64,000 nucleotides of DNA, taken from assembly GCA_024707405.1 (NCBI GenBank), contig JANPZU010000008.1, positions 248,001-312,000 of the forward strand, read 5' to 3'. Positions 47,035 through 51,218 of the stretch are shown piece after piece. This DNA comes from Luteimonas sp. (GTDB lineage: Bacteria; Pseudomonadota; Gammaproteobacteria; Xanthomonadales; Xanthomonadaceae). The position numbers and the translations under genes were made by a program. Under the pieces are notes generated by a model. It was not told the DNA's origin. It was given only the letters and a program-made list of their open reading frames with translations, and made no database searches. Within the stretch, counting starts at the first letter, position 1. Each line of letters opens with the position of its first letter.

Positions 47035-49857
47035 TCAATCGACCGTGGCAGGCGTTTCCGGCTTCACCGCTTCCGGGCTGACCTTCTCGATGGTGTGCCG
47101 CATCTCGCGGCCGAGGATCACCTTGGCGTCCTTCGCCCAGGCGTTGAGGCGCTCGTCGAACACCAGCTTGCTGTTCTCGTCCAGCTTCACAAGGCCCAGT
47201 TCACGCAGCTTCTGGATGAAGCCGCGGAACAGGGCCTTGTCGAAGAACTCCGGCGCAGCCGGCGCGTACAGCATCGACAGGCGTTGCGCGGCGAGTTGGC
47301 ACAGGCTTTCCAGTTCGCCGGCGCCCAGCGTGCCGGGGCCGTTCTTGGCCAGCACCGAGATGGCGATGTAGTAACGCTCGAACGCCTGCTGCAGCGGATG
47401 GCCCAGCGCGCGCAGGCGGAACACTTCGTCGGACTGTCCGGCGTTGCGCGCGAGGATGCCGCCGTCGTCCTCGCTGGCCTGCTCCAGCAAGCCTTCGCGC
47501 ACGAACACGTCGATGGTCTGGTCGATCCGTTCGGCGAAACCGTCCTCGTCCCACGGCAGGAACAGCTCGCCCTGCAGGAACGGATACACCGCCCGGCCGA
47601 TGCGGCGCAGGTTGTTGCGCGACATGCGACGGTTGTGCAGGAAGCAGCACGCGATCCATGCCGACGCGGTGAACAGGTGCAGCACGTTGTTGCGGAAGTA
47701 GCTCAGCAGCACCGCGTCGTCGTCGCCGACGCTGAACACGTCGCCGAGCGGATGCGCGATACGGCGCAGCACGCCGATCTCCTCGCCGTGCGCCACGATC
47801 TCGCGCGGCGTGTGCGGCGTGACCGTGACGCGATCCGAATACGGCACGTCGGCCAGCAGCACCTTCGACAGTTCGATCTGCGCCATCAGGTCGCCCTCGC
47901 CCATCGTGTGCTTGGGCGTGGACAGCAGCGCCAGCGCAAGCAGGTTGATCGGGTTCACGTCGGCGGCGCGGTTGATATTGACCTGGATGCGCTCGGCGGC
48001 CACGTCGACGGTGTGCGCCAGCCAGTCGGGCTTGTCGTCGTCGCCCAGCGGCTTGCCGTCCCAGTCGGTGGCGTGTTCGGCGAGCAGGTCGTTGAGCGGG
48101 ATCGGCTCGCCGAAGTTCACCACCACCTGGCCGTAGTTCTGCCGCAGCACCTTCGGGATTCCCCACAGCAGCGCCCAGATCGATTCCTTTTCCTTGGGCT
48201 TGCCGCTGAGTTCGTCGAGGTAGCTGTTGCCTTCCATCAGCTTCTCGTAGCCGATGTACACCGGTTGGAACACCACCGGGCGCGTCGGTTGGCGCAGGTA
48301 GGCACGCAGGGTCATCGAGATCATGCCGCCCTTGGGCTGCAGCAACCGGCCGGTGCGCGAGCGTCCGCCTTCGACGAAGTATTCGATGGAATAACCGCCC
48401 GCGATCAGCTGCGCCACGTATTCGGCCAGCACCGCCGAATACAGCGCCGAGCCGCGGATCGAACGGCGGATGAAGAACGCGCCGCCCTTGCGCAGGATCG
48501 AACCGACCACCGGCAGGTTGAGGTTGATGCCGGCCACGATGTGCGGCGGCACGATGCCCTTGGTGTACAGCAGGTACGACAGCAACAGGTAATCCATGTG
48601 GCTGCGATGGCTGGGCACGTAGACGATCTCGTTGCCCGGCGCCACGGCCTTGAGGTGGTCGAGGTGGTGCACCAGCACGCCGCGGTAGATGCGGTTCCAC
48701 ACTGACGTCAGCAGGAACGAGGCCGAACGCACCACCGGGTGCGAGTAGTCGGCGGCGATCTCGTAGGCCATCGCGTGGGCTTTCTTCCACGCGTCCTCGG
48801 GCTTGCTGTTGTCGCGCCGCGCCTGGTCGGCGATGGCATCGCGCACCGGCTGCGACGCCAGCACCTTGTCGACCAGCAAGCGGCGCGTGGACAGGTCGGG
48901 GCCGATGATTGCTTCGCGGATGCGGTTGAAGTGCGTGCGCAGCAAGCGCTGCAGCTTGCGCACCGTGCGCTCGGGCGTGAGGTCTTCGGCGAGCAGGCTG
49001 CGCATGTCCACCGGCGCGGCGAACTGCACCAGCGTGTCGCGACCGTTGAGCAGGATCGACAACAGGCGACGCGAGCGGCCGACGATGGCCCAGTTCTCGG
49101 AGAACAGCACCGAGAACCAGCCGCTGGCCTTGTCAGGCGAGCGGCCGACGAAGATCGACACCGGCACCAGTTGCACGTCCAGCGCGGGATCGATGCGATG
49201 CGCATCGAGCAGGCGGGCCAGCGATTCGGAATGGGTCTTCTTCGACGAGGTTTGCCCGGTCGCCAGCGCAAGTGCGCCGCCGGCATTGCGCCGCGACAGT
49301 GCGACATAGGCGCGCTTGCGACCCAGCGGATCGCCCGGCAACGGCTGCAGCGGCGACGGCAGCCCCGCCTCGCGGCAGGCGCGGTCGAGGATCAGCGCAT
49401 TGGAGACGCCATAGTCTTCCAGCACGTAGCAGACCGGTCGGCCGTCGATTCGCTCCTTCGGCGCCTGCGGCTCGATCTTGATCGCGATCCACGGATTCAG
49501 CACTCCGCCCAGCAGCTTCGCCCACCACGGTCGGCGCGCCCGCACCTCCCGCCGGGCCACCATCGGCATCGGCATGGCCGGGTCGCCGGATGCCGGCGGC
49601 TGCGCGGGCTCGGGGCCAAGGCCGAGTTCCGGTGCGGCCTCGCCGGACGCGTCGTCTGCCGGGGAAATCGCCGCGTCCGCGGCTCCAGCCCCGTCTTCGA
49701 CACCCTCTCCGGTACCCGCCGCAGTCGCTCCGGGCGCTTGGGCAGCATCCGCCGGCAAAGGGGCTTCCGGCCCGGCAGCGGACGCGGCGCCACCCGTCGC
49801 CGGGTCGGGCTTGCGGGTGGGGTCGTTGTCGAACAGGTTGGGCTGGGTCGGACTCAT
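47035..49857 (-). CDS. plsB: Glycerol-3-phosphate 1-O-acyltransferase PlsB
   Basis: This 940-residue membrane-associated enzyme adds the first acyl chain to glycerol-3-phosphate in phospholipid synthesis. Acyltransferase blocks are all present: VPSHRSHMDYLLLSY (His417-x4-Asp422), GGAFFIRRSIRGS, YFVEGGRSRTGRLL and RPVVFQPVYIGYEKL. It is longer than E. coli PlsB (807) mainly through about 95 N-terminal residues rich in Pro, Ala, Gly and Glu, predicted disordered. I chose the ATG at 49857: the only nearby alternative, at 49866, overlaps a CATAAT -10-like box. It converges with the modular secreted protein gene (48 bases). Confidence 0.95.
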   Translation of the reverse strand: MSPTQPNLFDNDPTRKPDPATGGAASAAGPEAPLPADAAQAPGATAAGTGEGVEDGAGAADAAISPADDASGEAAPELGLGPEPAQPPASGDPAMPMPMVARREVRARRPWWAKLLGGVLNPWIAIKIEPQAPKERIDGRPVCYVLEDYGVSNALILDRACREAGLPSPLQPLPGDPLGRKRAYVALSRRNAGGALALATGQTSSKKTHSESLARLLDAHRIDPALDVQLVPVSIFVGRSPDKASGWFSVLFSENWAIVGRSRRLLSILLNGRDTLVQFAAPVDMRSLLAEDLTPERTVRKLQRLLRTHFNRIREAIIGPDLSTRRLLVDKVLASQPVRDAIADQARRDNSKPEDAWKKAHAMAYEIAADYSHPVVRSASFLLTSVWNRIYRGVLVHHLDHLKAVAPGNEIVYVPSHRSHMDYLLLSYLLYTKGIVPPHIVAGINLNLPVVGSILRKGGAFFIRRSIRGSALYSAVLAEYVAQLIAGGYSIEYFVEGGRSRTGRLLQPKGGMISMTLRAYLRQPTRPVVFQPVYIGYEKLMEGNSYLDELSGKPKEKESIWALLWGIPKVLRQNYGQVVVNFGEPIPLNDLLAEHATDWDGKPLGDDDKPDWLAHTVDVAAERIQVNINRAADVNPINLLALALLSTPKHTMGEGDLMAQIELSKVLLADVPYSDRVTVTPHTPREIVAHGEEIGVLRRIAHPLGDVFSVGDDDAVLLSYFRNNVLHLFTASAWIACCFLHNRRMSRNNLRRIGRAVYPFLQGELFLPWDEDGFAERIDQTIDVFVREGLLEQASEDDGGILARNAGQSDEVFRLRALGHPLQQAFERYYIAISVLAKNGPGTLGAGELESLCQLAAQRLSMLYAPAAPEFFDKALFRGFIQKLRELGLVKLDENSKLVFDERLNAWAKDAKVILGREMRHTIEKVSPEAVKPETPATVD

Positions 49858-49864
49858 CACGGGC

Positions 49865-49870
49865 ATTATG
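49865..49870 (-). promoter_or_regulatory. -10-like box close to plsB start (leaderless candidate)
   Basis: Reverse-strand CATAAT, seven bases (GCCCGTG), then the plsB ATG at 49857. The box overlaps an upstream in-frame ATG, which makes that ATG an unlikely start. Confidence 0.42.
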
Positions 49871-49922
49871 CCGAACGTGGCTCCGCGGGCCTGCCAACCG
49901 TGGTTTTCCTGAATGGGCGGGG

Positions 49923-50399
49923 TCAGCGGCGCAGGATCGCCACGTAGCGGGCCCGGGCCTCGGTCGCGATGCCGCCTTCGGGCAGCGGCACCCGGCATGC
50001 CAGCGTGGTGCGGGCCCGGCCCCGTTCGCGCAGGGTGGTGATGAAGGTTTCCCACGAAGCGCCTTCGTCCAGCGAGGATTCGGCTTCGAGGTCGGCGTAC
50101 AGCGGGGCGAGATAGCGCACGTCGGTATCGGCCACGAACACGTCGGCGTCCAGCCCGGCTTCCTTCACCTTCAGCGTCACCAGCCCCCACGAGGCCAGCG
50201 TCATCAGCGACACCAGGCTGCCGCCGAACGCGCAGTCCTTGTCGTTGACGTGCAACGACAGCGGCGCGACCAGCGTCAATCGCTCGCCATCGTAGCCGCC
50301 AATGCGCGGCTGCATCGCCGCCACGGGCGGCATCGCCAGGTAATGCGCTTCCAGCGCGCGCAATGCATCGTCAAACGCCACGGAACCTTCCAACGCCAT
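49923..50399 (-). CDS. YiiD C-terminal-type thioesterase-like protein
   Basis: This 158-residue single hot-dog-fold candidate contains SLHVNDKDCAFGGSLVSLMT and WGLVTLKVKEAGLDADVFVA, wording typical of the putative thioesterase domain that forms the C-terminus of YiiD. It stands alone here without the acetyltransferase domain. The substrate is probably an acyl-thioester, by fold only. A good ribosome site (AAGGAG) precedes the ATG at 50399. It lies upstream of plsB on the same strand and is divergent from hemD; a link to lipid metabolism with plsB is possible but not shown. Confidence 0.78.
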   Translation of the reverse strand: MALEGSVAFDDALRALEAHYLAMPPVAAMQPRIGGYDGERLTLVAPLSLHVNDKDCAFGGSLVSLMTLASWGLVTLKVKEAGLDADVFVADTDVRYLAPLYADLEAESSLDEGASWETFITTLRERGRARTTLACRVPLPEGGIATEARARYVAILRR

Positions 50400-50456
50400 C
50401 GTCTCCTTGATCCTTCCGAACTTGCGGCGGCCACGTCGAGCCACCAAGCTGGCGCC

Positions 50457-51218
50457 ATGGTATCGAACCGAACCCGCCCTCCGCTGCACGGCGGCATCGT
50501 GCTTTCGTTGCGCCCGGTCGGCGCGCACGGCGCCCTGCGCCGCGCCGCGGCGAGGCAGGGCGCGCGCGTGCTGGCGCTGTCGCCGTGGCGCATCGCACTG
50601 CGCGATGACGCGGCGACGCGCAAGACACTGCGCGAAGCGCTGGCCGCCGATGCCGTGGTGTTCACCAGTCCCAACGCGGTGCGCGCGGCGGCAAACCTGC
50701 TGCCGCTGCGCAAACGCAAAGGCGCGGAGTGGCTGGCAGTCGGTGCCGGTACGGCATCGGCCTTGCGTCGTGCCGGCATCGCCAATGTCGCGTCACCTGC
50801 GCGGATGGACAGCGAAGGCCTGCTGTCGCTGCCGGCATTGCGCGACGTGCGCGGCAAGCGCGTCGGGCTGGTGACTGCTCCGGGCGGACGCGGCGTGATC
50901 GCCGCCACGCTGGCACGACGCGGCGCACGCATCACTCGTGCGGATGTGTACGAACGCATCGTGATTACGCCTTCGCCACGCGCGGTCGCCACGCTGCGCA
51001 CATTGCGCACGCGCCCGTGGCTCGCCCTGAGCAGCGGTGAAGCGCTGCAGCACGTCCTCACCGCGTTGCCTGCAGATGCGGCCCGGCGGTTGCGCACGTC
51101 GCGGGTATTGGCCGCGAGCGAGCGGCTGGCCGAACTCGCGCGCGAGCTCGGCTTCAATAACATCCATGTCGCAACGGATGCCCGCCCGCGCGCACTGCTG
51201 GACGCCGCGACGCGCTGA
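50457..51218 (+). CDS. hemD: Uroporphyrinogen-III synthase
   Basis: This 253-residue protein has the two-lobed HemD layout. The N-terminal lobe contains DAVVFTSPNAVRAAANLLPL and VGAGTASALRRAGI. The second lobe has GKRVGLVTAPGGRGVIAATL, then ADVYERIVITPS and WLALSSGEALQHVLTALP. It closes the linear hydroxymethylbilane to uroporphyrinogen III in the cytoplasm. HemD sequences are poorly conserved, but the TSPNAV and APGGRG segments and the following hemY support the call. hemC is not nearby. hemX, often between hemD and hemY, is missing. Confidence 0.85.
   Translation: MVSNRTRPPLHGGIVLSLRPVGAHGALRRAAARQGARVLALSPWRIALRDDAATRKTLREALAADAVVFTSPNAVRAAANLLPLRKRKGAEWLAVGAGTASALRRAGIANVASPARMDSEGLLSLPALRDVRGKRVGLVTAPGGRGVIAATLARRGARITRADVYERIVITPSPRAVATLRTLRTRPWLALSSGEALQHVLTALPADAARRLRTSRVLAASERLAELARELGFNNIHVATDARPRALLDAATR

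Follow-up and report, generated by a model that had tools for sequence, protein, structure and literature searches.

A conserved tip motif on a predicted disordered N-terminal extension of PlsB with a leaderless-type start

The plsB gene in the window, i.e., the whole stretch of 64,000 nucleotides of Luteimonas sp. DNA that was analyzed, has a conserved start and encodes an N-terminal extension that is predicted to be disordered, shows selection at the protein level in close relatives and carries a conserved short motif at its tip. We put at roughly three in four the probability of the whole explanation, in which plsB would give a leaderless mRNA whose translation starts at position 49857, and a disordered tether of variable length would present a partner-binding motif, Q-x-x-L-(x)-F with acidic residues behind it, at the free N-terminus, where it could let the membrane-bound enzyme hold a protein partner.

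The plsB product, its extension and the loci compared

47035..49857, minus strand: plsB coding sequence, glycerol-3-phosphate 1-O-acyltransferase, 940 residues from the ATG at 49857 (Pfam and NCBIfam profile matches)
49537..49857, minus strand: N-terminal extension of 107 residues, putative disordered tether (start of the profile matches, AlphaFold2, composition, dN/dS)
49489..49536, minus strand: start of the conserved PlsB core, RRPWWAKLLGGVLNPW, with a helix at residues 111–123 (sequence, profile match, alignment, AlphaFold2)

The 940-residue product scored 1073.4 bits against NCBIfam NF003441 (cut-off 610) and 991.2 bits against TIGR03703 (cut-off 618.5), and residues H417 and D422 of the acyltransferase motif HX4D were invariant in a 66-row alignment; by these curated cut-offs and HX4D it is a PlsB and a putative acyltransferase. 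A Foldseek search of the PDB gave, at E ≤ 0.001, matches to acyltransferases alone (8e4y, 1k30). With canonical PlsB, as represented by the two models, it has in common the whole catalytic core, HX4D and the conserved start region, whereas its 107 extra residues with their conserved tip motif have no counterpart there: the model alignments begin only at residues 108 (NF003441) and 119 (TIGR03703), and RRPWW of the conserved core begins at residue 108. The first-pass annotation had recognized an extension but made it about 95 residues long, ending at 49560, a position that corresponds to residue 100; the extension stands, with its length corrected to 107 residues, down to 49537.

Loci for comparison came from 42 named loci, 30 of the same genus, 60 stretches picked for genus spread and 24 further loci, and two copies of the window (L001, L075), one locus that was not plsB (L002), one at a contig end (L043) and sequence duplicates were dropped. 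Over the length compared, some same-genus loci matched loci named Luteimonas exactly (e.g., L046 and L003). The set of 145 loci consists of 61 rows, window included, and 84 others; 124 of them show the promoter and start arrangement described below, and their deduplication gave 119 unique N-termini. The 21 loci left out comprise 18 from more distant genera (L146 included), the contig-cut L084, and L097 and L132, two fragments cut just before the -10 box that still show QTPLPF.

The description of the extension as rich in Pro, Ala, Gly and Glu was borne out, as these residues make up 61% of its 107 positions (A27, P18, G13, with D9 and E7), and its charged residues are 16 acidic and 5 basic. 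AlphaFold2, run on the 66-row alignment, left residues 1–5 and 15–96 below a pLDDT of 50, placed the first helix at 111–123 and was mostly confident from residue 111 on, except for 240–259, so the disorder proposed earlier agrees with the prediction. The same annotation missed, however, that the extension is more than a low-complexity feature: its first approximately 10 residues are conserved.

Among the 119 loci, the distance from the ATG to the anchor (window residues 105–125) ranged from 16 to 173 aa, and the linker had no consensus across genera, its length varying several-fold, while the linkers behind the motif carried a net negative charge in 102 of 114 loci. This variation in tether length speaks against a tip that controls activity or dimerization by folding back on PlsB or its membrane face. 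Motif and core do share one chain, and residues 6–14 have a somewhat higher AlphaFold score than the remaining tail, but the rise is small (ten-residue means of 47 and 48) and comes with no assigned helix or strand, and we regard such folding back as improbable. Very long extensions were seen in L120 (173 aa to the anchor), L097 and L132; that of L120 contains, by eye, imperfect Ala/Glu/Pro repeats, which suggests growth by slippage.

Start codon and promoter

49865..49870, minus strand: CATAAT, -10 box of a leaderless-type promoter (sequence; conservation among relatives)

The gap between CATAAT and the ATG at 49857 is 7 nt. A consensus promoter scan found no sigma-70-type site in 49700–50100, and the sole -35-like hexamer spotted by eye, TTGGCA, lies 21 nt upstream of the -10 box; with no site from the scan, the promoter call rests on conservation among relatives. 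An A-T-rich -10 box followed by an in-frame ATG, in most cases at a distance of 7 nt, was present in 124 of the 145 loci (window included), in agreement with the earlier placement of the start at 49857. In the 119 unique loci the box reads CATAAT in 92 and GATAAT in 25, and the gap to the ATG is 7 nt in 96; upstream of the box, the latter 96 have G at -2 in 97%, T at -5 in 78% and C at -18 in 72%. Given such a very short distance between box and ATG, transcription should begin at the ATG or a few bases from it, and the plsB mRNA would then be leaderless. A search of open-licence PMC literature for leaderless mRNAs in Xanthomonas yielded, by title, no map for this family among the matches listed. 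Directly upstream of plsB, a minus-strand frame at 49923–50528, which presumably resembles a YiiD-type thioesterase, stops about 65 nt before plsB.

The window plsB has one codon more than its nearest relatives at the very start (ATG AGT CCG ACC CAG versus ATG CCG ACC CAG and similar), so that its protein begins with MSPTQPNLF and theirs with MPTQPNLF. A PDB chain of a relative's PlsB, 9vuq_E, matches locus L139 (genus g51), read from the leaderless Met, without a difference over 898 aa, and it begins, after three extra residues, at the Met corresponding to the leaderless start. Its extension, MPDRHSPDQPGLFD..., is of the same type as that of the window PlsB and has the same kind of start, but is shorter, with QPGLF at residues 9–13; this chain was absent among the 50 Foldseek matches listed (PDB to April 2026).

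The earlier suggestion that the extension is probably translated gains from this chain and from codon evolution. In the 16 most similar locus pairs, which are not independent and in which some loci recur, dN/dS over the aligned extension minus its last 18 codons was 0.08–0.53, and in each pair the third codon position holds the most differences of the three. Protein-level selection on the extension in close relatives is thus supported by sequence comparison, and we are nearly certain that the extension is translated. Both results count against a true start at an internal codon (M95, M97 or M99) with the extension left untranslated: in-frame ATGs do exist at these three positions, and some ATG occurs in that neighborhood in 17 of 61 loci (window included), but the other 44 have none there, and an internal start seems barely credible.

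The tip motif and its distribution

49831..49845, minus strand: QPNLF, a short linear motif at residues 5–9, followed by D (114 of the 119 unique N-termini, that of the window among them, carry the motif)

A tip of the Q-x-x-L-F or Q-x-x-L-x-F/L type was found in 114 of the 119 unique N-termini, as Q-x-x-[LMF]-F in 32 and as Q-x-x-[LMF]-x-[LFM] in 82; the five that lack it are L027, L039, L110, L130 and L158. The motif appeared in 1.0% of shuffled first-25-residue strings and in 0.6% of whole-extension shuffles, frequencies that overstate significance and give no p-value, as the sequences share ancestry. Farther along the extension, 9 of 180 blocks of 24 aa matched, and the background in other long reading frames from the flanks of 40 loci was 88 of 4215 such blocks (2.1%), obtained with a regular expression slightly narrower than that for the N-termini and with PlsB excluded by one string, so that a few copies may remain. 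The tip motif is not a product of composition. Its appearance is that of a short linear motif at the end of a disordered tether, and we hold it very probable that the motif is functional.

The consensus of the extension in the 66-row alignment is MPxQxxLxxP, followed mostly by x. The Q stands at residue 4 in 90 N-termini and at residues 5–10 in 24, i.e., the motif is kept despite its shifted place. Codon 2 encodes P in 83 of the 90, with a third-base entropy of 1.97 bits against 0.88 bits at Q, and both Q codons and four Leu codons are used over the 114 motifs. This synonymous variation at P2, Q4 and L7 indicates that the amino acids are constrained and not the codons. A conserved stretch directly at a leaderless-type start could also reflect a need of leaderless initiation for particular first codons, with the remainder as a passive spacer, yet the variable third positions, the displaced motifs and a distant locus (L146) that keeps QPSLPL without the -10/ATG arrangement make this very unlikely. 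On a 68-row core tree, the five- and six-residue forms exchanged at least three times by a quick method, and genus g39 contains both QPTLPL and QPNLF.

The extension is not peculiar to this PlsB, a point that the first-pass annotation missed: extension and tip motif occur in 36 of the 50 other genera sampled (53 seen). For this count, duplicates and loci outside the 119 were read from the first in-frame ATG; L099 counts as motif-less only through this reading, as its start gives QNPLPF. In 13 of the 14 genera without the motif the first in-frame ATG is no more than 32 residues ahead of the anchor, and in g54 it lies 58 or 17 residues before it, again with no motif; the extensions of L152 (g5) and L155 (g33) are short, about 30 residues, and lack the motif. 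The majority of the motif-less genera belong to the more distant ones, 60–71% identical in the core, but two loci at this distance do carry it, L141 (g34, 70%; QTQFPF) and L146 (g19, 68%; QPSLPL). Outside the family, 30 loci of the order were read, of which 23 could be anchored and 21 had a readable upstream in-frame ATG, 0–45 residues away; none of these 21 shows the motif. In the sequences sampled, the extension is therefore a family trait, missing in more distant genera. The QPSLPL of L146, at residues 14–19 of its frame and within a short extension, is very Hda-like.

Searches of open-licence PMC literature did not find the tip motif in work on PlsB, and matches for an N-terminal extension were unrelated by title; nothing was found there on PlsB in Thermomonas, and the only match for PlsB, glycerol-3-phosphate acyltransferase and cryo-EM structure together concerns lipopolysaccharide control.

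Candidate partners of the tip

The best-matching known motif is that of proteins binding the beta-clamp, DnaN. According to PMC11139829, the clamp-binding consensus is QL(S/D)LF but varies widely (QVELEFD, QADMF and, in the disordered N-terminus of Hda, QLSLPL), the flanks of the motif are mostly acidic, and a clamp dimer offers two sites for binding; the hydrophobic residues at positions 4 and 5/6 both dock in one pocket (PMC11139829, PMC9690074). The clamp motif of DnaQ is given as QTSMAF in PMC4478557. The tip follows this pattern with Q at position 1 and L at position 4 (QPNLF in the window; 110 of the 114 loci have L there and 4 have F), with F (111) or L (3) at position 5 or 6, with its two lengths of five and six residues, with D or E among the next three residues in 98 of 114 loci (0.39 in the background), and with a place that appears accessible and disordered, the window having low pLDDT around the motif. 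It departs from the pattern at position 2, typically Leu or another aliphatic residue, as none of the 114 has L, V, I or M there (P 45, N 38, T 20, S 6, A 3, D 1, E 1); QADMF and QTSMAF also lack Leu at this position, so that Leu there is a preference.

The genome's own DnaN is orthodox and aligns over residues 1–366 with clamps of solved structure. Among clamp-binding proteins, Hda comes closest to the PlsB tips, having in common with them Q-x-x-L-x-L/F near a disordered N-terminus with an acidic flank; the genome's own Hda begins with MIVPSPQLPLAL and has the clamp-type motif QLPLAL. The genome's DnaQ contains QGEIGF, which we take, by eye, to occupy the place of QTSMAF in E. coli, and its DnaE (L194) reads GIVDMFG, with no Q, at the internal clamp site where E. 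coli has QADMF (correspondence by eye), so known clamp motifs do drift in this genome. Unlike the clamp-binding proteins, PlsB is a membrane-lipid enzyme, has no Leu or large aliphatic residue at position 2, and its binding is putative; we know of no reason for such an enzyme to bind the clamp. The likeness is good but incomplete and makes PlsB a candidate binder, which we do not class as a clamp-binding protein.

DnaN is, by resemblance only, the best single candidate for the partner of the tip, though we consider it rather unlikely to be the partner; it would bring the first phospholipid step near the replisome or let PlsB sense the replisome. A link between PlsB and the clamp was not found in open-licence PMC literature, where, among the matches listed, a genome report was the only one to contain DnaN, phospholipid synthesis and PlsB together, and a search combining DnaN, phospholipid and clamp-binding gave, by title, only replication reviews. 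More plausible, if short of an even chance, is that the motif serves another partner, such as a lipid-synthesis enzyme, ACP, a protease adaptor, or a division or shape protein. The conservation of the motif fits this equally well, and position 2 is off the clamp consensus in all 114 loci. To our knowledge, on the other hand, no bacterial partner other than the clamp has a pocket for Q-x-x-L-(x)-F. Sister clients were also missing from a search of eight genomes with a DNA pattern joining leaderless start and motif, which hit plsB alone in four genomes and nothing in the other four, the pattern covering the six-residue form with a final F and with its Q at residue 4, so that it misses even the window's own plsB. 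A partner other than DnaN also accords with E. coli, where post-translational control of PlsB suffices to balance membrane synthesis with growth, its signals being described as not identified (PMC7439487). A family-wide docking motif, kept while the linker changes, would offer a handle on the control or placement of PlsB in another lineage, and if the partner were the clamp, it would connect membrane growth physically and directly with genome duplication.

The fullest form of the clamp proposal, which we rate as doubtful, is that the PlsB of Lysobacteraceae would be a sliding-clamp client by way of a disordered tether of variable length encoded from a leaderless start; the tip motif, joined in some genera by a second one, QxELP[MIV], closer to the membrane, would physically couple membrane synthesis with the replication fork. 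Around the site of this second motif, the window has a weak candidate:

49561..49578, minus strand: AMPMPM, residues 94–99, near the site of the relatives' QxELP[MIV] (weak; correspondence by eye)

A strict Q..LP[MLIVF] occurs beyond residue 25 in 16 of the 119 loci, the window not being among them, typically shortly before a basic stretch and the core (e.g., QAELPM, QPELPM, QTELPI). Two motifs would fit avidity for the clamp dimer, but the second is found in a minority of loci. Near the core end of the extension, L080, L095, L106, L125 and others carry a motif of the Q-x-[ED]-L-[PA]-[MIV] type.
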